Part shown: in pieces, positions 4,300-40,946 of the stretch
Layout of the letters: the number at the start of each line of letters is the position of its first letter
How positions within the stretch are numbered: the first letter of the stretch is position 1
DNA from: Nakamurella alba
Lineage (GTDB): Bacteria; Actinomycetota; Actinomycetes; Mycobacteriales; Nakamurellaceae
Reading direction: 5' to 3'
NCBI RefSeq assembly: GCF_009707545.1
Contig: NZ_WLYK01000005.1
Location: 310,001-374,000, forward strand
DNA: 64,000 nucleotides
The notes under the pieces: generated by a model
What the model was told of the DNA's origin: nothing
Seen by the model: only the letters and a program-made list of their open reading frames with translations
Databases searched by the model: none
Program-made: the position numbers and the translations under genes

Positions 4300-4318
4300 C
4301 GTGTTCCGCTCCGGCCCG

Positions 4319-7300
4319 TCAGCCCTGGATGACCCAGCGCAGCGGATCGAACAACCGGTGCGGCGCCCGGGCCGTCGAGTGCATCGTGTTGCTGGCCGGC
4401 GTGTGCCCGGTCGACGACGTGACGAAGTACCGGTAGGTGGCGAAGTTGCTCTCCACCAGGTGCAGGATCGACGAACCGCCGAGCTGCGACAGCAGGGTGC
4501 GGGCCTCCTGGTGCACCGCGTTGCCATCCACCGGGTCGAAGACGACCGGAGCCGCCGCCGGGTCGCTGTACGGATCCCGCAGCACGGCCGACCCGAACGG
4601 CAGCGCACCGGCGATCGGCGAGCCGGGGGAGCTGCTGGCCTGTTGCAGCGCATCGAACTTCGAGAAGACGACCGCCAGCCGGACCGGCAGCGGACCGGTG
4701 CCGCCGAACCGGCCGCGCAGCACGGTGATGACGTTGTGCAGGCCCTGCACCGGGGTCGCGCCGCCGCCCGGCGGCAGCGTCACGAAACCGTCCAGCGCCG
4801 TGCGGACCTCGGTGATCTGCAACGGGTCCACCAGGTAGATCAGGGCGTCGCCGTTCAGCATGGAGTGCGAGTAGTTCGCCAGCAGCTCCGGATCCTCCAT
4901 GTCCTCGCCGGCGACGTCGAACAAGGAGAAGGCGACCGGTCGCTGCTGCTGCGGGAACCGGACGGAGAACTGCAAGGGCCGCAACAGGTCCCGGTTCTGC
5001 TGCACGGAGGTCGTGCCGAGCTGGAGCCGTCCGGTCTCCCATTCGTCGTGGTAGCGCTTCATCCGCGCCCGACTGCCGGCGTCCAGCGGCGCGGCATACC
5101 CGCCCCAGGACTCGGCCAGACCCTCCAGCAATGCGTAGGACTGCGCCTGCAGCATCGACGTCTTCCCGGACCGCCGCGGTCCGAGCAGGGTGGCGGCATA
5201 GCTGTTCGTCTGCCACCAGTCGGCGTGCGGGAAGGTCTCGCCGCAGCTGAGGCAGAACTCGTCCCGGGTCACCGTGCCGCAGTGCCGGCAGTGCACCGAA
5301 CCCACCGGTCCGGTCGACTCCAGGGCCTGCATCGTCCACGGCTTGGCCAGAGTCCGGGTGCCGCGGATCCGGGTCAGCAAGGTGTCCTCGGCCGGTTGGC
5401 AGGTGCCCTCGGACCCGCACCGGAAGTACTGGTTCTCCGGGTTCGGCGGGGCCAGGCAGTGCGGACAGCGGCGGCTGACCCGTTGCGGTGCCGGCGATCC
5501 CGGTGCCATCCATTCGACGAGGGCGATCTCCTCGCCCGAGTTCGCATGCCCGAACACCTTCAGCTGCCGGGCCTGCGGCGGGACCGTGACCTCCCACCGG
5601 AACCACTCGCCGGGCGGGCCGTCGGAGGGCAATGTCATCGATGCGACGGTGCCGAACTCCGTCCCGCTGCCCAGCTCGCGCAGACTGAGCGGTTGCAGGT
5701 CCGTCCCACCACCGAGGACGAGACCGATGGGTGGGAGCGGGATCTCGGGACGGAGGTAGACCGCCCGGACGCCGGTCGGGCCGTACTCGAACTGGTAGAA
5801 CACCACCTGCCGGCCGGGGTAGGCGACCTCGGCCGGCCGCCCGCGGAGCGTCACGCCGCGGTAGGTGCGGACGCCGTGCAACCGGATCGTCCCGCGGTGC
5901 GGCGGCAGCGTCAGCCGTACACCGCCGTAGAGCTCGAACCGCTCCCGCGAGGTGCGGGTGACGGCACCGTCGACCTCGGCGATCACCTCCGCGGCGCCGG
6001 TCGGCCACTCGAAACGCAGGAACTGCCAGAAGATCCGGTCGGTCAGCTCGATCGCACCGATGGCGCCGACGTGGGTGAGCACCTGCGACGGGCCGACGGC
6101 GAACCGCCCGGCCATCTCGGTCACCGGGGTGAAGCACCACTCCGGGCTCTCCGCGACGTCGATGGCGAAACCGTCCAGCACGTCCCGGTTCCCGTCGCCG
6201 GTCAACCCCCAGACGATGCGGTTGCCCAGCGGCAGCCGGTCGATCTCCGCTGCGGTCAGGATCTGGTCGGGGGCGAGCTCACCGAGCTGGCCGGGGGTGC
6301 CGGGACGGTGGAAGATGCTGACCCGGCCGCGGGCCACCTTCGGCCAGGACAGCCGGCACTGCACCGAGGTGCCGGCATCGGACAGGCTGCCCTGCAGGTC
6401 GGTCACCCGCTCCGGCATCGCCGGGATGACCACGGTCCCCGAGGACCATGCGGGCGAGCGATCGGTGCCGCCCTCCGGCCGCGGGGCGCCGGCCAGGCAC
6501 ACGAGCTCGTACACGTAGCTGCGGCCGGGCTCGACATCCTTGTCCAGGTAGGAACTCTGACCTGCCTCCACCGGCTTGACCAGGGTGGCGTCCTCGAACG
6601 TCGGCAGCGGCTCGTCCGCCCGCGAGCGCCGGAGCTGGACCCCGGTGACCCCGGCCGGGCGGCGCCACTCCAGCACCACCGAGTCCGGGTTGACCACGAA
6701 GTCGACGCTGTCGGGCCCGGGCACGACCTGTCCGATCGCCTGCCGGACGGCCTGCGGGTCCCGGGCCGCGGCCATCGGGCTCGCGCCGCGGTAGGCGAAG
6801 ACGGCGTAGTACCGGTAGCCGGGCGCGACCACCGCCACCGGGTCGGCGGTCACCGCGAGCCGCTCACCCTGGTCGGCCGTGTGCGGGATCTCCGTGCGGG
6901 TGCCGACCACCAGGTACAGCAGGATCCCCGGGCCCGGATCGGCCGGGTCCCACATCAGCTGCACCCGGTCCGGGTGCACGGTGAGACCGATGTAGCCGTC
7001 GACGTTCCCGAACACGTCGGCATCGCCGGCGAACATGCTCGGCTCCGGCAGCGGGCCGGTCTGCTTGGCGAAACCGCCGGTGTGACCGGGCGGCGTGAAA
7101 CCGCCCGGGTGCGCACCGGTGTGCGGCCCGGAGTTGGTCACGGGTGGCCGGACCGGGGGCGGTGGTGGGGGAGGGGTGGCCGCCGGGAGGGTGCTCTGTG
7201 CTGATGACGTGGCATGTGCCGATGACGTGCCCTGCGCCGGTGACGTGCCCTGCGCCGAAGGCAGTGGCTGTCCCGTCGGCGAGCCGGTGGGTGGCGGCGC

Positions 7301-22899: not shown

Positions 22900-25800
22900 T
22901 CAGCGGCCGGAACCCCACCCGGTGGGACCACCGGGCTCCGGACCGGGGTCACCCCAACCGCCACCCTGCGGTTGATCACCCCAGCCCGGAGCCTGCGGCG
23001 GCGGAGTCTGCGCGGGTGGGGTCGGCGCAGGTGGCGGGACCGATCCCCACCCGGGCGCCGCGGGCGTCCCGGACGGCGGAGTGGCGTCGGCCGGACGCTG
23101 CGGCGACGGACCCGCGGGTGGCACCGAGCCCCACCCCGGCGACGGAGAAGGAGCCGGCGCCGGGGCACCGGGTTGCCCCCAGCCACCCGGCGACGGTGCG
23201 GCTGTCGGGCCGCCCCAGCCCGGCGTCGGCGCGGGGCCGCCGAGCTCGCGTTCCGGCGCCCGCGGGACACCGGCCGGCACCGGCTCGCCGGCAGCACCGG
23301 CACCGGCACCGGGCCCGGAGCCGGAACCGCGCTGCTGCCGGACGGTCTCGCGCAGGTCGCCCAGCACCCCGGGGGCCTGGCCGAGGGCGTCACCGAGCAG
23401 CCGGTTCCGGGTCTCCGCGTCGGCTCGTGGGGCGGAGATGAGCAGCAGATCGGCGGCGATCACCTCGGCTCCGGAGGCCAGGTCGTCGAGCGACCGGACC
23501 AGGACCGCCCAGGTGCCCTGCACCGCCAGCGGCAGCCGGGCCAGGTGCTCCGGCCCGCCGGTGAACGGCGCCTGTCCGCCGCTGCCGGGCCGGTCGACCG
23601 CCTGGGAGTACCCCGGCGCGGAGGACCACAGCGGCCCGGTCCGGGCCCGCCAGCGGATGCCCTCGACCTGCAGGGTGCGCCGGCCGTCGGTCGGCGGCGG
23701 CACCACGCCCCAGGTCGAGGGCAGGGTCGGCACGCCGCCGGTGTGGGTGGTGATCGACCGCGGCCCCACCATCACCGGCATGCGGACAGCGGACAGCTCG
23801 ACGTCCTCCGGGTAGCGGGCGGCGAGCCGCCGGGTCAGCCAGAGCACCAGGATCGGCAGCCCGATCCCGACGACCAGGGCGGCGACGAAGACGCCGATGA
23901 CCACCGGAGCGCTGGCGGACCGGGTCAGCCCCAGCGTGAACGGCACCGACTGGGTCGCCTCGGCACCGGTGCCGCCGCCCGCGGAGGCCTCCGGGATCAG
24001 GTGCACGACCACCTGCCCGCGCACCCCGCCGTTGCCCTCCGCCGACGGTGTCGCGGTCAGCGGCAGCGATCCGGTCTGACCCTCGGTGAGCTGTAGGCAG
24101 CTGCCCGCCGAGGTGTGCGTGCCGCCGATCGCCACCGAGGTGACCCCGGCCGGATGGGCCTGCAGCGCGGACGCCGGTTCCACCCACACGCAACCGGGAC
24201 CGGTCACCGGCAACGACGCCGACGCCGTCCCGAGACCCTCGAGGGCGCCGAAGTCGACGCCGGCCGCACCGACGGTCGGCGTCCCCGGCGCCGGGACCAC
24301 CGTCACCGGGATCTCCCGGACCACCGGGTCCAGCTCGATGCCGGTCTCGGTGGTGACGGCGAGCGTCATCCGCAGGGTGGCGGCGCCCAGCGGGGTGCCG
24401 GACGGGACGCCCTTCCACACGACGCCGGCGTCGGTGAGATCACCGGCGTCGCCGGTCCACACCTCGACCGGCGCCGCACCCGGGGCCGACGGCTGCAGCA
24501 CCACCGTGCTCGCCAACGCCGGCGCGGGGTCGCCGACCTGGGGTTCGCCACCGTTCAGCGAGGTGAGCCGCAGCGGCAGCGTGTAGTCGGTGCCGATCTG
24601 CACCTCGGCCGGCGCGTCCGGGGCGCCGAGAGCCAGGTCCGCGGACAGCGACACCCTGGTCGACGCGACGGCGTCCGGGTTGTCGCCCTGCCGGTCGATG
24701 AAGGTGACCTGCCACTCGCCGGTCCAGTTCGCCGTCTCCGCCGGCCGCACCATGTCGATGGTCAGCTGCTTGTCCGAGATCCACTGGTAGGAGATCTGCA
24801 CGTCGTCGACGGCGGCGGTGCCCGGGTCGCCGGTGGCACCGGCCGCGACCGGTTCGATCGTGGCGTTGCCGCCGCCCGGTCCGCGGATCTCCACCACCAG
24901 GCCGGGGACGCTGGGCACCCCGACGATGTGCACGGTGCGCAGCGAGGAGTCGAGACGGAACTTGTGGGTGCGCTCGCAGGCCTGCTGCTGGCACACCGGC
25001 AGCGTGCTGATCTCGCCCTGGGTGTCGCTGGACCCGAGACCCTCGATCAGCGGCAACAGGGTGGTGACGTCGGCGCGGTCGAACACCCCGGTGGCCGGCA
25101 GGTCACCGCAGTTGCCGTCGGGATCCTCGGCGATCCGGCGCATCAGCTCGAACTGGGTGTCGTCGGCGCCCAGACCCACCGCGGCGATCACCAGCCCGTC
25201 GGACCGCAACCGGTCGGCGAGTCCGCCGGCGCGGCAGAAGTCCTCGGTGCCGGAGTCGCGGATGGCGTCCGCCTCGGCCTGGGTGCCGGCCGGGGACACC
25301 CCGCCGGGCAGCCACGGTGTGTCCTTGGTGGTGGTGTCTCCCCACCGGTCCTCATCGTCCCGCGGGTCGATCAGGTAGGCACCGTCGGTGAACCAGAAGA
25401 CCAGGTGGCAGCCGTCGGCCACCGGGGTCCCGGAGGCGGCGGCGTGCGCCTCCTCCGCCTCGGCGGCCCAGTTCATCGCGGTCCAGTAGTCGGTCTCCTT
25501 GCCGGGGAAGCTGGACCGGTAGCTCTCCAGGTCCTGCTGGGCCGCGGGCAGCGTCGCGTCGTCCAGCGGTGACCAGACCGCGTCGGCCGGGTCGACCTCG
25601 CGGCCGCCCTGGAAGACGGTCTCGCCGAAGCCGGCGATGGCGACCGACAACGCGGCGCCGTTGATCTCGCTCTCCGGATCGGCGATCCGGCCGGCCAGGG
25701 AGGCCAGCAGCGCCTTGGCCGCGTCGATGCGGGCGCCGGTGGGGTCGTTGCCCGACACCGAGCCGGACACGTCCAGCAGGATCAGCACGTCACCGGCCTT

Positions 25801-25971
25801 GTTGGCGACCAGGCACGAGTTCAGCGCGGCCAGCGGGTCACTGCCCTCCGCGGCCGGAGCGGCCGTGGCACCCACGCGACCCGGCGTCACCGCGCCGGCA
25901 CCCGTGGGTAGCACCGCGAGCGCGATCAGGGCGGCCCCGAGCACGGCGAGCAGCCGCAGCACCCGGGTCAT
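22900..25971 (-). CDS. Secreted/membrane-anchored vWA protein, 1023 aa
   Basis: The ATG at 25971 overlaps the stop of the upstream membrane gene. A signal peptide (VLRLLAVLGAALIALAVLPT, cleavage near GAGA-V) leads to a von Willebrand A domain with an intact MIDAS (LLDVSGSVS, Asp67) and WFTDGA. Beta-sandwich domains follow (~340-670). One transmembrane helix lies at ~690-712 (VVIGVFVAALVVGIGLPILV). A cytosolic segment (~715-900) then precedes a Pro/Gly/Trp-rich tail of ~120 residues with repeated PGWGxxPP units. The layout places a ligand-binding vWA domain outside and a proline-rich tail inside, next to the tubulin-like protein. Extracellular cysteines (CLVANK, DGCHLV, DFCRAGG, GNCGD) may form disulfides. 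Function unknown; a receptor-like role is inference. Confidence 0.75.
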   Translation of the reverse strand: MTRVLRLLAVLGAALIALAVLPTGAGAVTPGRVGATAAPAAEGSDPLAALNSCLVANKAGDVLILLDVSGSVSGNDPTGARIDAAKALLASLAGRIADPESEINGAALSVAIAGFGETVFQGGREVDPADAVWSPLDDATLPAAQQDLESYRSSFPGKETDYWTAMNWAAEAEEAHAAASGTPVADGCHLVFWFTDGAYLIDPRDDEDRWGDTTTKDTPWLPGGVSPAGTQAEADAIRDSGTEDFCRAGGLADRLRSDGLVIAAVGLGADDTQFELMRRIAEDPDGNCGDLPATGVFDRADVTTLLPLIEGLGSSDTQGEISTLPVCQQQACERTHKFRLDSSLRTVHIVGVPSVPGLVVEIRGPGGGNATIEPVAAGATGDPGTAAVDDVQISYQWISDKQLTIDMVRPAETANWTGEWQVTFIDRQGDNPDAVASTRVSLSADLALGAPDAPAEVQIGTDYTLPLRLTSLNGGEPQVGDPAPALASTVVLQPSAPGAAPVEVWTGDAGDLTDAGVVWKGVPSGTPLGAATLRMTLAVTTETGIELDPVVREIPVTVVPAPGTPTVGAAGVDFGALEGLGTASASLPVTGPGCVWVEPASALQAHPAGVTSVAIGGTHTSAGSCLQLTEGQTGSLPLTATPSAEGNGGVRGQVVVHLIPEASAGGGTGAEATQSVPFTLGLTRSASAPVVIGVFVAALVVGIGLPILVLWLTRRLAARYPEDVELSAVRMPVMVGPRSITTHTGGVPTLPSTWGVVPPPTDGRRTLQVEGIRWRARTGPLWSSAPGYSQAVDRPGSGGQAPFTGGPEHLARLPLAVQGTWAVLVRSLDDLASGAEVIAADLLLISAPRADAETRNRLLGDALGQAPGVLGDLRETVRQQRGSGSGPGAGAGAAGEPVPAGVPRAPERELGGPAPTPGWGGPTAAPSPGGWGQPGAPAPAPSPSPGWGSVPPAGPSPQRPADATPPSGTPAAPGWGSVPPPAPTPPAQTPPPQAPGWGDQPQGGGWGDPGPEPGGPTGWGSGR

Positions 25972-26579
25972 GCCCACACGTCCAGCCGGGCGACGAAGTC
26001 CGCGAGCAGGTAGGCGTGCACGCCGGCGACGACGATCGCCGCCGCGGCCACCGCGAGCCGCAGCCCGGCCACCGACCCCGGCCTGGCCAGGTACCAGGGA
26101 CTCGCCCGCCGCCGCAGGTCGATCGAGGTGAAGACCACCAGCATGCCGAGACCGCCGACGACCGCCAGCGCCCAGCCGGCGACGTTCCAGCCCCACCCCG
26201 ACAGCACGAGCAGCACCGCGCCGATCATCGGGCCGGCGATCGCGGCCCACAGCAGACCCAGCGGCGGACGGGTCGCGGTCCCGGGGTCACCGGATCCTGC
26301 GGGGGCCGGTGACCCGGCCGCCCAGCCGGGCGGCGCGGCCGGTGTCGCGCTCCCGGGCGCCCCGCCCCAGCCGCTGCCGCCGGAGGAGCCGAAGCCCGCG
26401 CTGGTCCCGCCCTGCCCCCAGCCGCCCGTGCCGGGGGAGGAGCGCGGTGCGCCCCAGGAACCGGGGCCGGCCGGCGCACCGGACGGTGTCCCCGAGGGGG
26501 ACTGCGCGCCACCGGGCGGTGCACCCCATCCGCTGCGTGGGTCTGCACCGGAATCGCCGGGCGGTCCTGACCAGGACAC
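25968..26579 (-). CDS. Small membrane protein with Gly/Pro/Trp-rich N-terminus
   Basis: 203 aa from the GTG at 26579, with GAAAGAGG upstream; the longer open frame to 26852 has Arg/Pro-rich sequence that does not look coding. Residues 1-105 are Gly/Ser/Pro/Trp-rich (GWGAPPGGAQ, GGSGWGGAPG). The rest holds three or four helices (LLWAAIAGPMIGAVLLVLSG, WALAVVGGLGMLVVF, LRLAVAAAAIVVAGVHAYLL). It overlaps the vWA gene by 4 bp (ATGA), so the two are co-translated. No known family. Confidence 0.65.
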   Translation of the reverse strand: MSWSGPPGDSGADPRSGWGAPPGGAQSPSGTPSGAPAGPGSWGAPRSSPGTGGWGQGGTSAGFGSSGGSGWGGAPGSATPAAPPGWAAGSPAPAGSGDPGTATRPPLGLLWAAIAGPMIGAVLLVLSGWGWNVAGWALAVVGGLGMLVVFTSIDLRRRASPWYLARPGSVAGLRLAVAAAAIVVAGVHAYLLADFVARLDVWA

Positions 26580-27983: not shown

Positions 27984-29210
27984 ATGTCGGTGTTGCTGCC
28001 GGACGGCGACAACCAGCTGGAGGACATCTTCGGCAGCGAGGCCGTACGGACCGGTCTGGTCCCGGTGGTGCGACTGTCCGACCGCCAGGTCGTGGCCGTG
28101 GAGGTGGTCGTTGCCGGCCCGGCAGGATCCGCACTCGCGGATCCCGATCTGCTCGAGTCCGCCGCCCGCGACACCGGGATGACGGCCGAGCTCGACGCCG
28201 CACGCTGGTCCGGTGCTGCCGCGACCATCGCCGGGGCCGAGCTGCCGGCCGGGCTGCCGGTGCTGATCAAGGTCGACGCGGAGACCCTGCTGCAGGCACC
28301 CGACCCCGCGGATCTGGGCGTCGACCGCGGAGTGCTGGTACTGCCGCAGGATGCGTTGCTCGGCCATCCGGCGCGCATCGTCCGGCTGGTCGACCACGCC
28401 CGCGCCCAGGGATGGTCGATCGGTGTGGACCGGGTCGGGCAGGACGCCCGCGGCCTGGCACTGCTTCCGTTGCTGGAGCCCGACCTGCTGATCCTGCAGC
28501 CCGAGGCGATCGCCGGATCGGGCGACCTGGCCACCGCCCAGCTGGTCCACGCGGTCGCGGCCCACGCCGAGCGCACCGGTGCCGTGGTGATGGCGGCCGG
28601 TGTCGACGACGCCGGCCGGCACCGGGCGGCCCAGGCGATGGGGGCCACGGTGGGCCGCGGCCGGCACCACGTCCGGGCCCGGTGGGACGCCCGGCACCGC
28701 TTCCTGCAGCTGGGCGACGAGCCCCGGCGGCGGACCCGGGCGTCGTCGCCCTACGCACTCGCGGCGGCCGGCCGTGAGGAGCTGCTCGCCGACAAGCGCC
28801 TGCTGATCGAGATGAGCAAGTACCTGGAGATGGCGGCGCAGAGCGTGCAGCCGGTGCTGATGCTCGGCACCTTCCAGCACGTCCGGCACTTCACCCCGCA
28901 CACCGCGCTGCGGTGGGAGTACGTCGCCGGGGTCGCCGCCCTGGCCGCGGCCTTCGGCGAGGGCATCGGCCCGCGGCCGGCGACCGGTGTGCGCGGGGTC
29001 GATCTGGACCCCGACGACCCGGTGCGCGGCGAGTGGACGGTGCTCGTCCTCGCCCCACACTTCGCCTCCGTGCTGTCGGCACGCGATCTCGGCGACGGCG
29101 GACCCGACCTCGAGCGACGTTTCCGCTACGTGCTCTCGCACGACCGCGACCTCGTGGTGTCGATCGCCCGGGCGTTGCTCACCCGGGTCCCGGACGCGCA
29201 GCCGGCGTAG
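27984..29210 (+). CDS. EAL-like plus DICT sensory-domain protein
   Basis: 408 aa; ATG at 27984 with AGGAGG upstream. Residues ~20-230 follow an EAL-type TIM-barrel layout (RLSDRQVVAVEVVVAG at the position of the EAL strand, LLEPDLLILQPEAIAG, AERTGAVVMAAGVDD). The catalytic E-A/V-L motif and most metal ligands are replaced, so cyclic-di-GMP hydrolysis is unlikely. Residues ~250-408 fit the DICT domain (LLIEMSKYLEMAAQSVQPVL, LGTFQHVRHFTPHTALRWE), a sensor found in bacterial signalling proteins, often beside degenerate EAL domains. Probably a cytosolic sensor feeding the stress response, possibly with the divergent sigma factor. Confidence 0.75.
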   Translation: MSVLLPDGDNQLEDIFGSEAVRTGLVPVVRLSDRQVVAVEVVVAGPAGSALADPDLLESAARDTGMTAELDAARWSGAAATIAGAELPAGLPVLIKVDAETLLQAPDPADLGVDRGVLVLPQDALLGHPARIVRLVDHARAQGWSIGVDRVGQDARGLALLPLLEPDLLILQPEAIAGSGDLATAQLVHAVAAHAERTGAVVMAAGVDDAGRHRAAQAMGATVGRGRHHVRARWDARHRFLQLGDEPRRRTRASSPYALAAAGREELLADKRLLIEMSKYLEMAAQSVQPVLMLGTFQHVRHFTPHTALRWEYVAGVAALAAAFGEGIGPRPATGVRGVDLDPDDPVRGEWTVLVLAPHFASVLSARDLGDGGPDLERRFRYVLSHDRDLVVSIARALLTRVPDAQPA

Positions 29211-29344: not shown

Positions 29345-29352
29345 CGATGGTG

Positions 29353-30594
29353 ATGTCCACGAGCTGGTCGGGACGAACATCCCGGCGTCCCCAGGAAGCT
29401 GCCGCCCAAGCGGCCCTGGACGGTGCCGTCGCGGCCTTCCTCGACCTGGACAACCGCCAGTCGTACGTGGCGGACGCGATCGCCGCGGTCAATGAGCTCG
29501 CCGGGCCGGACACGGCGGCGGGAACGTCTGCGCTGCAACGGTCCTGGGCGAAGATCGCGGACGACTGCCTGCAGGCATCCGGACGCTACCTGGACGTCTC
29601 GAACCGGTTCCGGCTGACCGACGAGCTGGACCGTCCGACGAACGTCGACGCCGGTGCCGCGCAGCGCGCGTTCCTGCAGGTGCACCACGAGCTCGCCGAC
29701 GCCGCGAACGCGGTGGATGCCTTCTACCGCAAGCACTCCGCCGAGCTCGAGTCGGCGCGGGCCCAGCGATCGGCCACCCCGCAGCTGGCCGCCGAGGCCA
29801 AGCAGGCGGCGCTGGCCGCCGAGCGCGAGCTCACCCGGGCCGAGGAGGAGGGCGTCGCCTATCCGAGCGTGCAGGACGCCGCGGGAGAGCTGATCTCGGC
29901 GCTGGGTTCGCTGTCGGCGGCCGAGGGCAGCGGGCGGCCGGGCATGCTGCGGCAGGCCGCGGCCGCTGTCCGGTCGGCGGCCTCGCAGGTGACCGATCGG
30001 GTCACCCGGGCACGAACCCTGGCGCCGGCGGTGAAGTCGTCGATGGCCAGCGTGCGCACCCGGATCGAGGCCGTCACCACCCGGCTCGACAACCTCGGCA
30101 CCACCCGGTCCGCCCTGCTCCGCGAGTTCTCCGCGGCCAGCACCCGGGATCTGGCCGGCACCGACGAGCGCGCCCGGAAGGCGCTGGAGCAGGCCCGCGG
30201 TGAGTTCGCGGATGCCGGGCGACTGCTCGACGCGGGTGAGGTGGAGAAGGCCGGGGACGCGTTGAAGGACGTCCGGCGGCACCTGTCGGAGGCCGAGGAC
30301 GGCCACAAGGCGCTCACCGAGCGGCTACGGGTGCTGCGGGAGACCCGCGACGATCCGCAGAAGGCCGCGAAGGCAGCCCGTTTCCGGCTGCGGGACGCCC
30401 AGCTGCTGGTGGTCGACCGCGGCAAGGTGCCCGAGTGGGGCAGCGTGCTGGACGCCCAGGTCGACCGGATCGACCGCGCCGTGGACGGCCTGACCGGCGC
30501 GCACCCCGATTACTGGGGGTACCTTCAGGCGCTCGCCGGGGTCGAGTCGTTCGTCAGGGGCGTGGTGGACAAGGTCAGGGCGGAGATCCGCTGA
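29353..30594 (+). CDS. Alpha-helical coiled-coil protein beside Ter-type enzymes
   Basis: 413 aa (415 from the ATG at 29347). Nearly all of it is Ala/Glu/Arg/Leu-rich helix with heptad-like spacing (AAEAKQAALAAERELTRAEEEG, split over ~155-180; VRTRIEAVTTRLDNLGTTRS; ERARKALEQARGEFADAGRL). No signal peptide or membrane helix. It is convergent with the ATP-grasp gene, which it overlaps by 70 bp. Helical proteins of this kind accompany TerD/ATP-grasp/StiP genes in actinobacteria, where a role at the membrane or in assembling the enzymes has been proposed. I cannot assign a family. Confidence 0.7.
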   Translation: MSTSWSGRTSRRPQEAAAQAALDGAVAAFLDLDNRQSYVADAIAAVNELAGPDTAAGTSALQRSWAKIADDCLQASGRYLDVSNRFRLTDELDRPTNVDAGAAQRAFLQVHHELADAANAVDAFYRKHSAELESARAQRSATPQLAAEAKQAALAAERELTRAEEEGVAYPSVQDAAGELISALGSLSAAEGSGRPGMLRQAAAAVRSAASQVTDRVTRARTLAPAVKSSMASVRTRIEAVTTRLDNLGTTRSALLREFSAASTRDLAGTDERARKALEQARGEFADAGRLLDAGEVEKAGDALKDVRRHLSEAEDGHKALTERLRVLRETRDDPQKAAKAARFRLRDAQLLVVDRGKVPEWGSVLDAQVDRIDRAVDGLTGAHPDYWGYLQALAGVESFVRGVVDKVRAEIR

Positions 30595-31790
30595 GGCCGG
30601 TCGCCCACGGTGCCTGTGCCTGCCCCTGCCGCTGCCGATACGGCTGACATCGTTGTCCCCGCCGCCACGGCAGAGCCTGCCGACACAGCAGCCGGCATGT
30701 TCTCCGGCAGCGCCACCGACGGCAGACCGACCGGCGAGGGCAGACCGACCGGCGACGGCAGCGCCGCGGGAACGCCGGTCAGCGGCACGATCGACGTGAT
30801 CGTCACGTACTCCGCCCCGAGCACCGGCATCGGCAGGTCGGCCTCGAGTCCGAGCGCGACCCGGACCGCCGCCCAGACCAGGTTCACCCCGGCCAGCTCG
30901 GTCTGGAACAGACCACCGGCCGGTCGGGTGTTGATCTCCAGCAGCGCGGGACATTCCTGGTACCAACGGAACTGGACGTTGACCAGGCCGTGCAGACCGA
31001 ACCGCGAGACCAGCTCGCGGGCCGCTCCGAACAGTGACGGGTCGCCGTCGAGCACCCGCCGCCGGCCGGACTTGCGCCGCGGCACCGCCGCCAGCATCTC
31101 GCCGTCGCGGGCCACGATGTCCAGGCTCGTCTCGGGGTTCGACAGGTACGGCATCAGCAGGAACTCGGGCACCGCGCCCTCGTGCCGGCGCAGGATCTCC
31201 CGGACCTGCCGGGCTCGCAGCACCGGTGCGGCCGGGCCGAGCAGGTCGTCCAGGGTCGGTTCGCTCCGGGTCAGGAACCGGACCCCCTCGGCGCCGACGC
31301 CGCGGGCAGGCTTCAGCACCAGCGGGTGCCCGGTGGCCCAGAGCGGGCCGAGCGCATCGACCGCCTCGTCGAAGTCGTCGGCCGAGCGGACCGATCGCCA
31401 CGGCGGGACCAAGGGGTCGCCGTCCAACGCGCGGTAGGTGGCGGCCTTGTCGTCCAGCAGGTCGATGGCCGCCGACGGCGGTGTGATGACGGCCACCCCG
31501 GCCTCGTCGAACTCGGCCAGCCGGCGGGCGATCGCCGCCATGCCGCCGACCGGCAGCAGGACGTCGATGCGGTGCCGCCGGCAGGTGGCCAGCATCCGGT
31601 CGACGAAGTCCTCGGCGTCGGCGTCCGGCTCCGCGAGCACGTGGTCGGCGCCGGCGAGCACCGGCGACGACGGGTCGACGTGTGACGCGTAGATCTCCAC
31701 CGGGGTCCCGTCCGGATTCTCCCGGAGCTGTCGCATCAGGTGCAGGCTCGTGGCGAAGTTGCGATTGAGCCAGATGCGGATCGGTGACAC
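30525..31790 (-). CDS. ATP-grasp ligase of Ter-associated type
   Basis: 421 aa from the GTG at 31790, with AGGAG 5-6 bp upstream. The N-terminal domain (IRIWLNRNFATSLHLMRQLR) and central ATP-grasp fold are typical: HPLVLKPARGVGAEGVRFLT holds the lysine and glycine-rich loop (~155), and ALLEINTRPAGGLFQTELAG (~280) holds the metal-binding Glu/Asn. ATP-grasp enzymes join a carboxylate to an amine, thiol or hydroxyl using ATP. In Ter-linked loci this enzyme is predicted to act with the PRTase, lyase and HAD proteins to make a nucleoside-like compound. The last ~70 residues, with LPSPVGLPSPVGLP repeats, are low complexity and overlap the convergent gene. Confidence 0.8.
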   Translation of the reverse strand: MSPIRIWLNRNFATSLHLMRQLRENPDGTPVEIYASHVDPSSPVLAGADHVLAEPDADAEDFVDRMLATCRRHRIDVLLPVGGMAAIARRLAEFDEAGVAVITPPSAAIDLLDDKAATYRALDGDPLVPPWRSVRSADDFDEAVDALGPLWATGHPLVLKPARGVGAEGVRFLTRSEPTLDDLLGPAAPVLRARQVREILRRHEGAVPEFLLMPYLSNPETSLDIVARDGEMLAAVPRRKSGRRRVLDGDPSLFGAARELVSRFGLHGLVNVQFRWYQECPALLEINTRPAGGLFQTELAGVNLVWAAVRVALGLEADLPMPVLGAEYVTITSIVPLTGVPAALPSPVGLPSPVGLPSVALPENMPAAVSAGSAVAAGTTMSAVSAAAGAGTGTVGDRPQRISALTLSTTPLTNDSTPASA

Positions 31791-32419
31791 CGACACTCCT
31801 GAGGGACGTGCACGACGGACGGGACGGGAAACAGCGGGGCGCAACACTGAGACAGCGGAGAACAACGGTGGGACGGTGGGGCGGAGCAGGACGGCACAGG
31901 ACAGCAACGGGACGGAGCAGGACAACAGGGGGCCGCCGGTGCAGCGTTGCGCCGGGCGGGGAAGCCGGTGAGGGCGCCGGTTCACGGGCCGCAGGTCCTG
32001 TCCCGACACGGGTCATGCTAACGGCCGAATGTGTCGGCCCATTCACACGCTCGTTTCGTCCTGTTCATCCAGTGGTCGGCGGCGGATCCGGGCGACGGGT
32101 CCCGCTGGTCCCTGCCATGGTGCACACTGTGGTCGACGGCGCCGGCGGGCCGGCTGCCGTCCGTCGTGCCAGGGTCGTCACGCCGGTCGCACCGGAAGGG
32201 TCGCTGTCGACCCCGACCTGTGACACGTGCGGCGGATCCGTCGACGGCGACGTCGGACGATCCTGTCGCACAACGGTTCTCGACCCACTTCCGGCCCTGT
32301 GCACCGGGGCCCGGGGAAGGGAACCGGAGGCACCATCAGCAGGACCACCACGACATGCAGGCGGCGGTAGCCGGGCGTACCCGGCGAACCCACGTGCGAA
32401 CCGGACGACGAGGAGACCC
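31791..32419. other. Divergent intergenic region, purine-rich on the plus strand
   Basis: About 630 bp between the starts of the ATP-grasp and lyase genes. 31800-31930 is an unusually purine-rich GGGACGG/GGAGCAGGAC tract. The rest holds only short Arg/Pro/Ser-rich frames. It should hold both promoters. No certain hexamers or operators found. Confidence 0.45.
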
Positions 32420-33583
32420 GTGCGCCACTTCGACCACCTCAGCGACGCCGTGCGTTCGGACCTGTTCCTGCACCAACCGCAGGACTTCCACTCCGAGAGC
32501 CCCCGGTCCGTGCTGGCCCATGCGCTCGGGGCGACGCTGTACATGCCCGGTAGCCGCAGCGATCTGGCCACCACGTTGCGCAAGCGGGCCGCCGAGGGTG
32601 TCCGGTCCATGGTCCTGGACCTGGAGGACGCGGTCGCCGACCGCGATGTCGCCGACGCGATGCTGAAGGTCCAGGAGACCCTGGACAAGCTGTCGTCCGA
32701 TCCGCTGCCGGCGCAGTTGTTCGTCCGGGTGCGCACCCCCGACCAGATCCGCACGATCGTCGACGGTCTGCCCGAGAAGTCCTGCCACCTCCAGGGTTTT
32801 GTGCTGCCGAAGTTCTCGGCCGCGACCGGCGCGCGGTTCCTCGCCGAGATCGCGAACGCCTCCGAGCAGTCCGGGCTGCGACTGCTGGCGATGCCGGTGC
32901 TGGAGACCCAGGACGTGCTCTACCGGGAGACCAGGGACGAGGCACTGACCGCGATCCGCGGCCTGCTCCACCAGTACCGCGAGTTCGTGCTGGCCGTCCG
33001 GCTGGGCGCCACCGACCTGTGCGGCCTGTACGGGATCCGGCGGGACCGCGACCTGACCATCTACGACGTCGGGGTGGTTGCCGACCTGATCGCCGAGGTC
33101 GTCAATCATCTCGGCCGGGCGGACGGCACCGGCTACGCGATCACCGGGCCGGTCTGGGAGTACTTCGCCGGCCACGAACGCATGCTGCGGCCGCAGCTCC
33201 GGCAGACGCCGTTCGCGGAGCGGCAGGCGAGCTCCTTCCGGCACCACCTGGTGCAGAGCGATGTCGACGGCCTGCTCCGAGAGGTGTTGCTGGACAGGGC
33301 GAACGGGCTGATCGGCAAGACGGTGATCCATCCGTCCCACGTGGCGATCGTGCACGCCCTGTCGGTGGTCCCGCAGGAGGAGTACCAGGACGCGCTCGAC
33401 ATCCTCGCCTCGGACGCCGACGGCGTCCGCGCCTCCGGTGCCAGGAACAAGATGAACGAGATGCGACCGCACCGTCGCTGGGCCGGCCGGATCGTCGACC
33501 GCGCCGCCGCTTTCGGTGTGCTGCACCCGGATTCCAGCCACGTCGACGTGCTGTCCGCCCTGCTGCAGGGCGACGACGCGTGA
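32420..33583 (+). CDS. HpcH/HpaI (citrate-lyase beta-like) family lyase, Ter-associated
   Basis: 387 aa from the GTG at 32420, with AGGAG 5 bp upstream. The TIM-barrel hallmarks of the HpcH/HpaI-CitE family are visible: GATLYMPGSRSDLATTLRKR at the first strand, SMVLDLEDAVADRDV with the acidic metal ligands, LFVRVRTPDQI, GFVLPKFS and LAMPVLETQDVL. Members cleave or form C-C bonds through a metal-bound enolate, often on acyl-CoA or 2-oxo acids. In Ter-linked loci it is predicted to modify the product of the PRTase/ATP-grasp pathway. Its stop overlaps the next start (GTGA), so the two are co-translated. Substrate unknown. Confidence 0.8.
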   Translation: MRHFDHLSDAVRSDLFLHQPQDFHSESPRSVLAHALGATLYMPGSRSDLATTLRKRAAEGVRSMVLDLEDAVADRDVADAMLKVQETLDKLSSDPLPAQLFVRVRTPDQIRTIVDGLPEKSCHLQGFVLPKFSAATGARFLAEIANASEQSGLRLLAMPVLETQDVLYRETRDEALTAIRGLLHQYREFVLAVRLGATDLCGLYGIRRDRDLTIYDVGVVADLIAEVVNHLGRADGTGYAITGPVWEYFAGHERMLRPQLRQTPFAERQASSFRHHLVQSDVDGLLREVLLDRANGLIGKTVIHPSHVAIVHALSVVPQEEYQDALDILASDADGVRASGARNKMNEMRPHRRWAGRIVDRAAAFGVLHPDSSHVDVLSALLQGDDA

Positions 33584-36135
33584 CGGCCGTGCTGCCCGGT
33601 TGGGTCACCGAGAGCTTCGGTGTCTCGATCGCTCCGGGGTCGTCCCCGGTCGGCCTCGAGGTGACCGATCTCGTCCGACTGGCGTTGCGCCGCAACCCAC
33701 GTCGTGCCCACCTGCTCGTCTCGACCGTGCTGGGCAAGCACCTGCCGGTCGACGTGCGAACTGTCGCGGGTGCCGGGCGCCTGCTGGGCGCGCTGGTCCG
33801 GCTGCGCCTGGTCGGCGGCGAGGTGCCCGGATCCTGGGTGGACGCCGCCCGGCGGACCGTCGTCGGCGGCGACCGCGCGGCTCTGCTGGACGCTCTCCCG
33901 GCGCCGGTGCCCACCGACTGCGTGGTGCTCGGATATGCCGAGACCGCCACCGCCCTGGGACATCTCGTCGCCGAGCAGCTCGGAGCCCGGTGGACGCTGC
34001 ACTCCACGCGCCGGCCCGACCCGGGCGTGCCGGTCACCGGTACCTTCGAGGAAGGTCACTCGCACGCGACAACCCATCTGCTGCAACCGGTCCCGGCCGA
34101 CCAGCTGACGGAGTCCACGACACTCGTGCTGGTCGACGACGAGCTGTCGACCGGCCGCACCGCCATCGGGACCATCCGCGAACTGCACGCCACGCGCCCG
34201 CACCGCCGGTACGTGCTGGCCTGCCTGGTCGACCTGCGGTCGGCGGAGGACCACTCGGTCATCGACGATCTCGCTGCCGAGCTCGGCGTGGTGATCGAGG
34301 TGGTCGCGCTCGCGTCCGGCACGGTGCGGTTGCCGGACGGACTGCTGACCGAGGTGTCCGACTGGCAGGACGCGCATCCCGTCACCCCCGCGCTCGACTT
34401 CGGACCCCTGCTGCCGGATCCCGCCGACGTGACGTCGGACGGGTCCCTCGGGCCCGGCGCTGCGACTCCTGCTGTCGGCAGCGGGATCCTCACGGAGGTC
34501 GTGGATCTCGCGTGGCCGGCCGGACTCCCCGAGTCCGGTCGGCACGGTCTGGCGCTCCCGGACCACCCGGGTGTCACCGCTGCCGCGGAACGGGCGGCGG
34601 CGGTCGTCCGCAGCCTGCTGCCGGCCGGTACCCGCACGGTGACGGTGGTCGGCACCGAGGAGTTCATGTACGTGCCGGTGCTGATCGGTCTGGGTCTGGC
34701 GGCGGCCGGGGATCTGCAGGTCGGGTTCCAGTCGACCACCCGTTCCCCGGTCTGGCCCGCGGACGGCCCCGGATATCCGGTCCGACGGCGGTTCGTCATC
34801 CCTGCCACCGACGCCGGAGTGGACGCACACCGGTATCTGTACAACGCATTCGCGCCCGATGGCACCGATACCGCCGACGAGGCCGACGTTGTCGTGCTGG
34901 TGGGCGATCACGGCACCGACCCGGCGCAGCTGGCCGCAGCCGCCGGGGTGATCGCCTCGGCCGGAACGGTCGTCCTGCCGGTCCGGGTGGCGGCGGTACC
35001 TGTTCTTCCGGAGCCGCTGCGCGGACCGGCTTTCGGCTCGTACCCGACTGACGACGTCGCCTGGCTGCTGACCGACCTGTCGCATCTCGACCTGGAAGCC
35101 GATGTGGCGCAACGGGAACGCCTCATCCAGGCCGGTCAGGCGCACTACGCCGAGTCCCTGCCGGTCGAGTACCAGCCGGACGCGACCTACCAGCAGCTGT
35201 TCGCCGAGGTGCTCGCCGGGTCGGCGCAGCGGCTGGCCACTGCGGTCGGCGTGGTGACCGAGCTGGTGCTGGCCGAACGCGGACACGACGTCGTCCTGGT
35301 GTCATTGGCGCGGGCCGGCACGCCGATCGGCGTGCTCATGCGCCGGTGGGCGCAGCAGATGCACGGTCTCGACCTCCCCCACTACGCGGTGTCCATCGTG
35401 CGTGGCCGCGGGATCGACCGGGTCGCGCTCGGTTATCTGGCCCGCCATCACACCCCGTCGTCGGTGGTGTTCGTCGACGGCTGGACCGGGAAGGGCGCGA
35501 TCGCCAAGGAGCTGTCGGCGGCACTGGCCGAGGTCCGGGAGACCGACGGGTGGGACTTCGTCGACGATCTCGCCGTGTTGGCCGATCCGGGGGAGTGCGT
35601 CCGTACCTTCGGCACGCGCGACGACTTCCTCATCGCTTCGGCCTGTCTGAACTCGACGGTCTCCGGTCTGGTGTCGCGGACGGTGCTCAACCCCGACTTC
35701 CTCCGGCCCGACCAGTTCCACGGCGCGAAGTTCTACGCCGACCTGGCCGACGGTGACGTCTCGCAGGTCCTCGTCGACGCCGTGGCCGCGGAGTTCGACG
35801 CCGTTCGCGGCGCGGTCTCCGATCAGCTGACCGCGGTGCTGACCGGGGACCGGTCGGTGACCTTCGCCGGCTGGGCCGCGATCGAGCGGATCCGCGAGGA
35901 GTACGGCATCAGCTCGGTGAACTTCGTGAAGCCGGGTGTGGGGGAGACCACGCGGGTGCTGCTCCGCAGGGTTCCGTGGCGCATTCTGGTGCGGGAGGCA
36001 GATCACCCGGACCATGCGCACCTGCGCCTGCTCGCCGCCGATCGTGGTGTGCCGGTCGAGGTCCGGCCCGATCTGCCGTACTCGTGTGTGGGACTGATCC
36101 GGCCGCTGTCCGCGGCCGACCGTGGGGAAGGATGA
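33580..36135 (+). CDS. Fused phosphoribosyltransferase-TRSP-StiP-PELOTA protein
   Basis: 851 aa. Residues ~1-330 are a type I phosphoribosyltransferase with the PRPP loop LVDDELSTGRTAIGTI (~183-198), followed by a TRSP-type domain (~340-480; VVGTEEFMYVPVLIGLGLAA). A StiP domain follows at ~485-755: FGSYPTDDVAWLL, LVSLARAGTPIGVLMRRW, HYAVSIVRGRGIDRVAL, VVFVDGWTGKGAI and ACLNSTVSGLVSRTVLN. The last ~90 residues (EEYGISSVNFVKPGVGETTR, VLLRRVPWRILVREADHPDH) fit the PELOTA-like RNA-binding domain. In many bacteria the PRTase-TRSP and StiP-PELOTA parts are two neighbouring genes; here they are one. The StiP family is named a cysteine protease, but the conserved SLARAGTP and DGWTGKG motifs also recall PRTase-like phosphate loops. 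Overlaps the genes on both sides by 4 bp. Confidence 0.85.
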   Translation: MTAVLPGWVTESFGVSIAPGSSPVGLEVTDLVRLALRRNPRRAHLLVSTVLGKHLPVDVRTVAGAGRLLGALVRLRLVGGEVPGSWVDAARRTVVGGDRAALLDALPAPVPTDCVVLGYAETATALGHLVAEQLGARWTLHSTRRPDPGVPVTGTFEEGHSHATTHLLQPVPADQLTESTTLVLVDDELSTGRTAIGTIRELHATRPHRRYVLACLVDLRSAEDHSVIDDLAAELGVVIEVVALASGTVRLPDGLLTEVSDWQDAHPVTPALDFGPLLPDPADVTSDGSLGPGAATPAVGSGILTEVVDLAWPAGLPESGRHGLALPDHPGVTAAAERAAAVVRSLLPAGTRTVTVVGTEEFMYVPVLIGLGLAAAGDLQVGFQSTTRSPVWPADGPGYPVRRRFVIPATDAGVDAHRYLYNAFAPDGTDTADEADVVVLVGDHGTDPAQLAAAAGVIASAGTVVLPVRVAAVPVLPEPLRGPAFGSYPTDDVAWLLTDLSHLDLEADVAQRERLIQAGQAHYAESLPVEYQPDATYQQLFAEVLAGSAQRLATAVGVVTELVLAERGHDVVLVSLARAGTPIGVLMRRWAQQMHGLDLPHYAVSIVRGRGIDRVALGYLARHHTPSSVVFVDGWTGKGAIAKELSAALAEVRETDGWDFVDDLAVLADPGECVRTFGTRDDFLIASACLNSTVSGLVSRTVLNPDFLRPDQFHGAKFYADLADGDVSQVLVDAVAAEFDAVRGAVSDQLTAVLTGDRSVTFAGWAAIERIREEYGISSVNFVKPGVGETTRVLLRRVPWRILVREADHPDHAHLRLLAADRGVPVEVRPDLPYSCVGLIRPLSAADRGEG

Positions 36136-37010
36136 CCGTGCAGGGACTGCAGGGATCGACCGTACTGGCCAGCGATCTCGATCGAACGCTGATCTACTCG
36201 CCGTCGGCCCTGCAGCTGCCCGGTACCGACGAGCAGGCACCGACCCTGGTGTCGGTCGAGGTCATCGAGGGACGGCCGCACTCGTTCATGACACTTACCA
36301 CCGCTCTGCGGCTGGCGGCGCTCAGCCGGCAGAGCGTGTTCGTGCCCACCACCACCCGGACCATCGCGCAGTTCCGGCGGATCGGGTTCGTCGGCATCAC
36401 CCACGGGTGGGCCATCACCAGCAACGGCGGCAACATCCTGCGGCAGGGAGTCCCGGACCGGGACTGGAACGCTGCCGCCCACGCCGGGATCGCCGGCACC
36501 GGAGCGTCTCTCGCCGAGGTCAAGGACGAACTGAAGCACCGGTCGGACCCGGCATGGATGTTGAAGCGACGGACCGGTGATGATCTGTTCTGTTATGCCG
36601 TGGTCGACATCGCACAGCTGCCAACTGGTTTCATCGATGACTGGCGGGCCTGGTGCGACGAGCGGGGATGGCGGGTGTCCGTCCAGGGACGGAAGATCTA
36701 CGCCATCCCCGGGTCGTTGTCGAAGGAGAACGCACTGGCCGAGGTGAAGCAGCGAGCCGGCGCCTCGACGGTGCTCGCCTCCGGGGACGGGGCGCTCGAC
36801 GCCGGCTTCCTCGCAGCCGCGACCGCCGGACTCCGCCCGCCGCACGGTGAGCTCGCGGCCGTCGGCTGGACCCACCCGACCGTCGCGGTCACCGAGCATG
36901 CCGGCGTGCTGGCGGCGGACGACATCACCGCCTGGTTCGCCGACCGGGTCGGTCTCGACCTCGGTGATCTCGATCCGGATGCGTTGGCCGCCGCAGTCGC
37001 GGTGTCCTGA
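36132..37010 (+). CDS. HAD-superfamily hydrolase of the Ter-associated cluster
   Basis: 292 aa; the ATG overlaps the previous stop (ATGA) and GGAAGG lies just upstream. Motif I is LASDLDRTLIY with the catalytic Asp15/Asp17. The Cof-type cap lies in the middle (HGWAITSNGGNILRQG). Motif III/IV region reads SLSKENALAEV (lysine) and LASGDGALDAGFL (GDGxxD). This is the class of phosphatase that removes phosphate from sugars or nucleotides. Its position suggests it dephosphorylates the pathway product made by the PRTase. The 3' end is duplicated just downstream. Confidence 0.85.
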   Translation: MTVQGLQGSTVLASDLDRTLIYSPSALQLPGTDEQAPTLVSVEVIEGRPHSFMTLTTALRLAALSRQSVFVPTTTRTIAQFRRIGFVGITHGWAITSNGGNILRQGVPDRDWNAAAHAGIAGTGASLAEVKDELKHRSDPAWMLKRRTGDDLFCYAVVDIAQLPTGFIDDWRAWCDERGWRVSVQGRKIYAIPGSLSKENALAEVKQRAGASTVLASGDGALDAGFLAAATAGLRPPHGELAAVGWTHPTVAVTEHAGVLAADDITAWFADRVGLDLGDLDPDALAAAVAVS

Positions 37011-38253: not shown

Positions 38254-39405
38254 TCAGGAAGCGCTGCCGGTCGGGGGAGCGGAGTTCCGGAGTCCGGGCG
38301 GCAGGGCCTCGGGCGACATGATCTGGATGATGCGGTGCAGATCGTCCACCGTCGCGAACTCGACGACCACGCGGCCCTTCTGCCGGCCGAGCTCGACCCG
38401 GACCCGAGTATCGAAGGCGTCGGACAGCTTCTCGGCCAGGGACGAAAGTCCAGGCATGATCAGCTTTTTCGGCGCGGCACGCTTCTTCGTCCGGGACTTC
38501 CCCGCCATCAGGACAACTGCTTCTTCGGTGCCGCGGACAGAAAGGCCCTCCGCCACGATCCGGGCAGCGAGGTCCTCCTGCTCGGCCGGCTCCTCGAGTC
38601 CGAGCAGCGCCCGCGCGTGACCCGCGGACAGCACGCCGGCAGCCACCCGTCGCTGCACCGCCACGGGCAGCTTCAGCAGTCGGATGGTGTTCGAGATGAC
38701 CGGCCGGCTGCGACCGATGCGAGAGGCAAGCTCCTCCTGCGTCACCTCGAACTCCTCGAGCAGCTGCTGGTAGGCAGCCGCCTCCTCGAGCGGGTTGAGG
38801 TTCGTCCGATGGATGTTCTCCAACAGGGCATCGCGGAGCATGTCCGCGTCCTCGGTACGGCGGACGATCGCCGGGATCGTGGTGAGCCCGGCCTGCTGGG
38901 CAGCTCGCCACCGGCGCTCACCCATGACCAGTTCGTAACCGTCGTCGACCGGTCGCACGACGATCGGTTGCAGCAGACCGAACTCACGGAGTGAGTGTTC
39001 CAGTTCGGCGAGAGCGTCCTCGTCGAACACGGTCCTGGGGTTCCGGGCGTTCGGCCGGATCTGGTCGATCGGCAGCTCGAAGTAACCCGGCCCGCCGGAC
39101 GAGGTGACCGCTGCGGACGCCATTGCTCCGGAGTCATTGCTGTCCGTCGGCGACTCCTCGACCGGGGGAGTGGCGGTCGCTGTCGCGCCATCGGCCTCGG
39201 AAGCCGGTGCCGCGTCGTTCGCCTTCTCAGCTGCGGTCGCGGCCGTCGCCGATGTGGATTCCGCCGCGTCCGACGCCGTCGTCGACGCTGCATCGTCCTT
39301 CTTCGGCGGACCCTGCATGAACACCGCATTGACCGTGTTCGTCGCCGGACCCGTGGGGATCAGCGCTGCCAGCCCTCGACCCAGTCCGCCTTTGGACTTA
39401 CTCAT
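38254..39405 (-). CDS. parB: Chromosome-partitioning protein ParB
   Basis: 383 aa. The first ~105 residues are a Lys-rich start ([17 protein letters not shown]) and a long Ala/Thr/Ser-rich linker that binds ParA in relatives. The ParB/Srx CTPase domain follows ([42 protein letters not shown] at ~158, [16 protein letters not shown]). The helix-turn-helix that reads parS ([20 protein letters not shown]) and a C-terminal dimerisation part come last. ParB loads on parS, spreads as a CTP clamp and is moved by ParA. The start overlaps the parA stop (ATGA), so the two are co-translated. Confidence 0.97.
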
Positions 39406-40397
39406 GCCGATTCCTCCGCACCGTTGGTGGCCGCTGTCGTAGTGATGTGGTCGGCGCTCGTGCCGCCGCTACCCGTGTCTCCCGGCCCGGTGCCGGCACC
39501 CCGGTCGGCGATCTCCCGGGCGGCGTCGAGGTAGCTCATCGCACCGCGGGATCCCGGGTCGTAGGTGAGGACCGACTGGCCGAACCCGGGTGCCTCCGAC
39601 ACCTTCACCGAACGCGGGATGACGGTCTCCAGCACCTTGGTCCCGAAGTGTTCGCGAACCTCGTGGGCGACCTGGTCGGCGAGCTTGGTGCGCCCGTCGT
39701 ACATCGTCAGCAGGATCGTGGAGACGTCGAGGGACGGATTCAGATGCTGCTTGACGAGGTCGATGTTCCTGAGCAACTGACCGAGCCCTTCCAGTGCGTA
39801 GTACTCGCACTGGATCGGGATCAACACCTCTTCGGTTGCCACCAACGCGTTGACGGTGAGCAGACCGAGTGACGGCGGGCAGTCGACGAAGATGTAGTCG
39901 TAGGAGTCCGCGACCTCGAGGAGCGCCTTCTTCAACCGGGTCTCCCGAGCCACCATGGAAACGAGCTCGATCTCGGCGCCGGCCAGGTCGATGGTGGCGG
40001 GAATGCAGCCGAGCCGGGGCGCATAGGGACAGGTCTGCACCGCCTCGGCGGCTGTGAGCTCACCGAGCAGGACTTCGTAGATCGATGGAGTGCCCATCGA
40101 CCGATCGACCGCCAGTGCGGTCGACGCATTCCCCTGCGGATCCAGATCGACCACCAGGACGGACAACCCTGCGAGTGCCAGTGCCGCCGCGACGTTCACG
40201 GTGGAGGTCGTTTTCCCGACCCCACCCTTCTGGTTCGCCACACTGAAGACCCGGCGATGGCGCGGGCGCGGCATGGTGAGACCGCCGCTCTTCACCTCGA
40301 TCGCCTGCCGCGCAGCACGCGCAATGGGGGAGTCGTGGAGTTCTGCGGGACCGTTCAGGCTCGAAGTTTCACGTGAAACATCGGCATCCGAAGTCAC
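39402..40397 (-). CDS. parA: Chromosome-partitioning ATPase ParA (Soj-type)
   Basis: 331 aa from the GTG at 40397, which has GGGAG 5 bp upstream; ATGs at 40409 and 40463 are in frame without good ribosome sites. The deviant Walker [18 protein letters not shown] lies at ~49-66, Walker A' [10 protein letters not shown] follows, and Walker B is [12 protein letters not shown]. ParA binds DNA non-specifically in its ATP form and pulls ParB-parS complexes. A parS site lies inside the first codons, where it is read as DVSRET, so ParB binding could also cover the translation start and autoregulate the operon. Confidence 0.96.
40365..40380. other. parS: parS site within the 5' end of parA
   Basis: A-GTTTCACGTGAAAC-A: the full 14-bp palindromic core, with one outer base off the TGTTTCACGTGAAACA consensus. 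It lies 17 bp into the chosen parA reading frame. Confidence 0.93.
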
Positions 40398-40946
40398 CCG
40401 GGCTCCCATCTCGAACACCGCCCGAGAAGCGGAAGGTGTACGTCGCAGACTACGGCACCACATGCTCGCGACCAGATCTGCGCACGCAGTCCTGTGGACA
40501 GCCGTGGGTATCCCTCATGGTCGGGTTGAGGTCCTGTCGGCGGGCTCCCGCGGGCACCCCACCGGGCCCGGCAGCGAGCCGGGCAGTGCGTTCGTCTGCA
40601 TCCACAGCGCGCCCCGCAGTCCGCAGGGCCAATGGGATTCTCGGCACCGGGTCGGGCTGACCAGAGAACTTGGCCGGCTCCTGTGATGTTGCGGAAGGTG
40701 TGGGCCGCCGTGCTCGTTCCGACGGCAGTGGGGGGTCAGAGACCGCGAGCGTGACCCAGCTTGGTCAGCGAGCCAAGGCACACCGGCCGTTCACAGGTCA
40801 CCCGCGATGCCAGCTCGCCGATGAAGGTGGCACCCAAGGTTTCCGGCTGGAGAGGTCGAGCATGTTGGCCACCTTCGGGCCACCGGAGCGGCAGGCCGAC
40901 GGAGCCCTTCGAGACCTCGATCCCCGCTCTCCCGCGGCAACCGAGG

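Follow-up and report, generated by a model that had tools for sequence, protein, structure and literature searches.

The Ter genes of bacteria have been described as a putative cluster for biosynthesis, with a nucleoside-like metabolite as the predicted product (PMC8115787), and the Ter system has been reported to make nucleoside or nucleotide derivatives as a signal (PMC7824862). A phosphoribosyltransferase (PRTase) of the Ter operon has been linked to a PELOTA/L7Ae domain, a connection credited to Anantharaman and co-workers, and the family PRTase_1 has been listed beside PELOTA_1 with the same count for both (PMC5571608); these statements reflect the cited portions of the three articles. 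PRTase_1 has also been named with the accession PF11202, which is now StiP in Pfam (PMC13109261). The locus considered here belongs to Nakamurella alba and lies in a window of 64,000 nucleotides, the whole stretch of DNA that was analysed (assembly GCF_009707545.1, contig NZ_WLYK01000005.1, positions 310,001 to 374,000), where a single gene on the + strand (33580-36135) encodes PRTase_2, TRSP, StiP and PELOTA_1 domains. It holds the same Pfam families and has the same neighbours (a lyase, a haloacid dehalogenase (HAD)-type protein and an ATP-grasp protein) as the Ter-linked PRTase_2-TRSP and PRTase_1/StiP-PELOTA genes, and differs from them in that both halves form one chain and no TerD lies nearby. 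The predicted fold of its StiP domain resembles that of PRTases, with CriT as the best structural match.

CriT comprises residues 599-1036 of Bcs3, the capsule polymerase of Haemophilus influenzae b (structures 8a0c and 8a0m), and has a PRTase-like core. As set out in the cited part of the source, it transfers ribofuranose-5-phosphate from phosphoribosyl pyrophosphate (PRPP) to a ribitol hydroxyl, following which the HAD enzyme CrpP removes the 5-phosphate; its acid pair is split over two loops, as D680 and E818 (PMC10299916). The pairing of a glycan phosphoribosyltransferase with a HAD phosphatase is also mentioned for other ribofuranose transfer systems in an article cited here in part (PMC11127046). 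No link between StiP and CriT was found in the literature, within a coverage that was partial.

The fused gene begins with GTG, ends with the TGA at 36133-36135 and encodes 851 amino acids (aa) without an internal stop. It overlaps both neighbouring genes, its start codon lying over the stop (TGA) of the lyase gene before it as GTGA and its stop codon over the start (ATG) of the HAD gene after it as ATGA. In a Pfam search, all four domains exceeded their gathering cut-offs by far, confirming the domain boundaries and the joining of a PRTase-TRSP half to a StiP-PELOTA half in one chain, as a preliminary description of this DNA had read it; the C-terminal half is thus not unrelated to StiP. PRTase_2 (PF15609; 33670-34320, aa 31-247; E 1.1e-59, 201.6 bits against a cut-off of 28.8) carries the canonical PRPP motif LVDDELSTGRT (34129-34161, aa 184-194), in the type I PRTase form of two vicinal acids and then TG, with D186, D187, E188 and G192 kept in 133 of 133 aligned rows and T191 in 132. 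It is followed by TRSP (PF12500; 34531-34935, aa 318-452; E 2.7e-24, 85.9 bits against 25), with the motif behind its name, STTRSP, at aa 385-390, and by StiP (PF11202; 35035-35784, aa 486-735; E 1.5e-103, 345.7 bits against 28.7). The chain closes with the L7Ae-like PELOTA_1 (PF15608; 35866-36102, aa 763-841; E 2.7e-37, 126.8 bits against 25), whose invariant residues are K784, P785, E789, T791, R792, R796 and R797; this match relates it to the L7Ae/PELOTA RNA-binding domains, here joined to a PRTase fold and with RNA binding being putative. Further searches returned weak matches: PRTase_III-A in PADLOC over PRTase_2 (E 0.0021), a phrog of unknown function in PHROGs (E 0.0014) and, when the PDB sequences were searched with a StiP-PELOTA profile, an L7Ae match (E 0.1) together with a chance-level nucleoid protein and nothing else.

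The fusion is ordinary in its lineage. StiP occurs in 55 genomes of a class-wide sample of 246, and the DNA of all 55 was read: PRTase_2, TRSP and StiP lie in one stop-free frame in 30 and in two genes in 24, the remaining locus (L061), at a contig edge, being left without a placement. Fused and separate forms are thus about equally common within the class, and the earlier statement that these parts are usually separate neighbouring genes in Ter-linked loci is only half right. A single genus (g23), placed on the tree together with loci titled Streptomyces, supplies 21 of the 30 fused genomes, and all 21 of its sampled StiP genomes have the fusion. Among the 16 sampled genera with StiP, the fused form is present in 7 and the separate form in 10, with both forms in one genus. 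Eighty named contigs, selected by closeness to the query, comprised 59 fused and 16 separate loci; the five left unplaced were at a contig edge without a PRTase_2 match (L116, L118 and L148) or had PRTase_2 in a frame different from that of TRSP (L115 and L127). In the genus of the window itself, 17 genomes were searched (its own included) and the locus was present in 13, fused in 5 and separate in 8. A sequencing error at a stop codon could be ruled out as the source of the fusion, the same arrangement being found in 30 of 55 and 59 of 80 loci. In a genome that is 74% complete (locus L200, G287:C2), StiP itself is split over two overlapping frames, and this locus was not placed in the fusion counts.

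The StiP domain was modelled with AlphaFold from 61 sequences (predicted local distance difference test, pLDDT, 87.1; predicted template modelling score, pTM, 0.89), and the full-length protein from 44 sequences (pLDDT 80.7, pTM 0.70), the latter model not being used for domain-domain contacts; the two are partly dependent, as loci are common to both alignments. Structural comparison with VIA-align, in which unmatched models typically reach a best Z of 7 to 8, gave residues 639-939 of 8a0c_A as the best match of the StiP model (Z 11.4, 201 aligned residues, 4.2 Å, model residues 68-286), followed by 8a0m, PyrR (1ufr_A, Z 9.3, 147 aligned) and hypoxanthine-guanine phosphoribosyltransferases (HGPRTs), with Z of 8.2-9.3 for the PyrR and HGPRT entries. 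The StiP part of the full-length model (537-813) likewise matched 8a0c_A (Z 12.0, 203 aligned). In the same model the PRTase_2 part matched adenine and xanthine phosphoribosyltransferases with Z of 12-13, the best being 7y94_B (Z 13.1, 174 residues, 3.0 Å). Foldseek assigned PyrR and HGPRT a probability of up to 1.00 against the StiP model, with E-values no better than 0.0031, and among viral models its top entry was a phage phosphoribosyl transferase (E 0.0027). The record of Acinetobacter phage ME3 labels its own StiP copy 'phosphoribosyl transferase'.

Several invariant positions of StiP lie in two loops of this predicted fold. In an alignment of 128 rows, including Rhizobium, Enterobacter, two phage records and one viral contig, the segment SLARAGTP (35302-35325, aa 575-582) falls in the loop after the first core strand, at the position of PRTase loop I, and contains the invariant residues S575, R578, A579, G580 and P582 within SxxRAGxPxG. 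Four further invariant residues (H601, S605, G611 and D613) lie in HYAVSIVRGRGID (35380-35418). The segment FVDGWTGKG (35470-35496, aa 631-639) takes the position of the PRPP loop, though the second of the two canonical vicinal acids is missing, and holds D633, W635, G637, K638 and G639 (DxWxGKG), all invariant, as are D669, D682, GLxSR and H714. The predicted core fold is shared with PyrR and HGPRT, and DGWTGKG replaces their DD-type PRPP motif. The preliminary description had taken SLARAGTP and DGWTGKG for phosphate-binding loops rather than a protease site, and the assignment of both as PRTase-type phosphate or PRPP loops is supported by the structural matches of the models and by the lack of an invariant Cys in the 128 rows.

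A constant feature of these loci is the HAD gene, which directly follows StiP in every one of the 92 actinobacterial loci whose flank was long enough (those with a short flank were omitted, and L074 and L187 are from one genome), a likeness to the CriT/CrpP pair. Among five distant records, a HAD gene is near StiP in four (Rhizobium, Enterobacter, phage ME3 and a viral contig) and was not found in the fifth (L155). A Rhizobium etli plasmid (L153, 5711-8967) has PRTase_2, StiP and HAD together, and no match to the lyase, ATP-grasp or TerD families was found in the vicinity, an arrangement that points to this trio as the core of the system. In the window, the HAD gene (36132-37010, + strand) encodes a sugar phosphatase-like protein of 292 aa, similar to the trehalose phosphatase 6cj0 by phmmer (E 4.2e-05) and without a match in a Pfam search. 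Upstream of the fused gene, and on the same strand, lies a C-C_Bond_Lyase (HpcH/HpaI-type TIM barrel) of the Ter biosynthetic set (32420-33583; PF15617, E 1.8e-118), its start codon set by comparison with a relative locus (L074); a divergent ATPgrasp_Ter ligase-like protein is encoded on the - strand (30525-32009; PF15632, E 9.7e-35). Together with the domains of the fused gene, these neighbours identify the locus as a predicted Ter biosynthetic module.

The reading we favour, held with confidence that goes about halfway, is that the gene encodes a fused two-PRTase enzyme of the predicted Ter pathway for a nucleoside-like metabolite, in which StiP is a CriT-like enzyme of PRTase fold. Most likely, the N-terminal PRTase_2, with its intact PRPP motif, would transfer ribose-5-phosphate from PRPP to a base-like acceptor, with TRSP acting alongside. 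By analogy with CriT, StiP would most likely catalyse another transfer of ribose-5-phosphate from PRPP, or else act on that same ribosyl intermediate, and the neighbouring HAD protein would subsequently take off the 5-phosphate, in the role that CrpP has behind CriT. Synthesis or extension of the acceptor may fall to the lyase and the ATP-grasp protein, and PELOTA_1 may hold RNA or position the product. None of the present results lends support to the sequential steps, the action of StiP on RNA or the RNA binding by PELOTA_1 that the preliminary description had put forward for this protein.

Several observations weigh against a CriT-like StiP. The Foldseek search with the StiP model gave no match at E <= 0.001, with unrelated folds among and above the PRTases, and alignment of StiP by hhalign, based on shallow profiles and one comparison each, was not significant for PyrR (E 0.084), HGPRT (0.26) or PRTase_2 (0.71), the weak PyrR alignment nonetheless passing both StiP loops in register. 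CriT and StiP are 8% identical. The PRPP-type loop has one acid in all motif types of the 128 rows where PRTases have two, and positions 575-581 hold no D or E in 128 of 128 rows, leaving the loop-1 acid of CriT without a counterpart, although the loop-3 acid of StiP (D633) is invariant. Lacking both the vicinal acid pair and the loop-1 acid, StiP cannot be called a canonical type I PRTase on its motif, or a proven CriT, and the missing acids could mean that it binds a PRPP-like ligand without catalysis. Moreover, the Ter HAD is a separate gene whose product is trehalose phosphatase-like, any kinship with CrpP being putative. These points lead to a serious rival, a PyrR-like regulator binding both ligand and RNA: StiP would be a non-catalytic regulator or sensor of PRTase fold, comparable to PyrR or PurR, that binds PRPP, a nucleotide or an alarmone, while PELOTA_1 binds RNA, control of the pathway rests with the C-terminal half and product formation with PRTase_2 alone. 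PyrR, itself an RNA-binding regulator of PRTase fold, is the next best structural match (1ufr_A, above), the DGWTGKG loop lacks the canonical acid pair, and a PELOTA_1 match follows StiP in frame in all loci of the class-wide survey except in one contig-edge genome (G190; L031 and L065). Nevertheless, the StiP loops are invariant across relatives down to 27% identity, in the manner of an active site; CriT, which itself has no vicinal pair, gives the higher score and the longer alignment; and StiP is retained in Rhizobium, in which the set found comprises PRTase_2, StiP and HAD alone. The regulator is considered less likely than the CriT-like enzyme. That StiP is instead a cysteine protease, with the fusion coupling ribosylation to proteolysis, is suggested only by names: Pfam calls PF11202 'Tellurite-like stress resistance cysteine protease StiP', and plasmid records carry 'cysteine protease StiP family protein'. 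The 128 rows have no invariant Cys, the commonest Cys columns of StiP-PELOTA (673, 689 and 836) holding it in 121/128, 123/128 and 120/126 rows and elsewhere I, M, V, R, A or S, including in Rhizobium, Enterobacter or phage ME3, and the model matches PRTases; cysteine protease folds were not among the structure matches listed, which are mostly PRTases and whose lack of them excludes nothing. StiP is very probably not a protease, and the proteolytic coupling is a most improbable account of the fusion. The literature searched did not reveal where the name StiP comes from, and the cited part of one article has it as an annotation (PMC12111023). The view of StiP as a PRTase is the older one, later overwritten by the protease name, and the present results favour it.

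Another explanation concerns the fusion itself, which would have little meaning if translationally coupled, overlapping genes fuse and split through chance frameshifts in their overlap; the proteins would be produced side by side and may associate in any case, so that this explanation is compatible with the CriT-like enzyme favoured above. In 38 of 43 separate loci, the stop of PRTase_2-TRSP overlaps the start of StiP by four bases (22 ATGA, 12 GTGA and 4 TTGA), and a short insertion or deletion nearby would suffice to fuse or split the genes. On a tree of 122 StiP sequences, which omits L062, L152, L153 and L157 (on long branches or outside the Actinomycetota), the fused or separate state changes 14 times, a number from which the direction of change cannot be read, and the 5 fused and 8 separate loci of the window's own genus point the same way. 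Collapsing forks below 80, 90 or 95 in the Shimodaira-Hasegawa-like approximate likelihood ratio test (SH-aLRT) leaves 11, 7 and 3 changes; a first tree, which included those four rows but lacked the rows added from the genus and order, had 10, near-identical rows having been thinned ahead of both trees. A single ancestral fusion event is incompatible with the 14 changes, with only 3 being left under the strictest collapse. On the other side, the fused form persists over a large clade (g23, 21 of 21), and 14 changes are far fewer than the mean of 35.5 obtained with shuffled labels, so that the state is inherited, yet labile. That the fusion has little meaning is held to be rather unlikely. Put simply, the two proteins would work together, and the tether would be tolerated or mildly useful, and dispensable; as the state toggles together with a four-base gene overlap, the tether is optional and mostly repeats the message of the operon. 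Of the direct physical link that the preliminary description had drawn from the fusion, what stands is that the enzymes can work as one chain, recurrently and in several lineages.

The wider surroundings of the locus agree in part with the Ter-linked setting previously proposed: lyase, HAD and ATP-grasp neighbours are present, but there is no TerD match in the 64-kb window. Twelve TerD matches occur elsewhere in the genome, the nearest on contig C5 about 143 kb from the fused gene, whereas TerD lies within the flank in 85 of 92 loci of relatives. Upstream of the Ter-type locus is a block on the - strand (1387-26250), which includes a GAP1-N2 match (1387-4653), a tubulin-like protein (PF13809; 19108-22710, E 2.7e-40) and a weak vWA match (22900-26250). 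An EAL and DICT domain protein is encoded on the + strand at 27984-29210, and between it and the ATP-grasp gene a protein of 415 aa (29347-30594, + strand) has only a weak SMC-like match and no convincing family. Two open reading frames at 38254-40463 on the - strand resemble ParB and ParA when judged by eye, and the window may thus be near the replication origin.

A bolder proposal, which we regard as improbable, is that StiP-PELOTA is a bacterial RNA ribosyltransferase, in which the L7Ae-like domain would hold RNA and the CriT-like fold would move ribose-5-phosphate from PRPP to a hydroxyl of it, with the HAD protein trimming the phosphate and the PRTase_2 of the same chain supplying or recycling the ribosyl intermediate. 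The product would resemble that of Rit1 acting on eukaryotic initiator tRNA, as described in the cited part of one source (PMC7694415), and, if true, Ter stress and phage protection would act through RNA modification. StiP matches 2566 plasmid records, and Ter biosynthetic genes are carried on many enterobacterial plasmids. The database name 'cysteine protease' steers experiments wrongly. Should StiP prove to be a CriT-like PRTase, PRPP would allow direct tests of the pathway, and the fused protein would provide both PRTase parts from one expression construct. The useful outcome is therefore a testable reassignment of StiP, from a protease to a putative CriT-like enzyme of PRTase fold.

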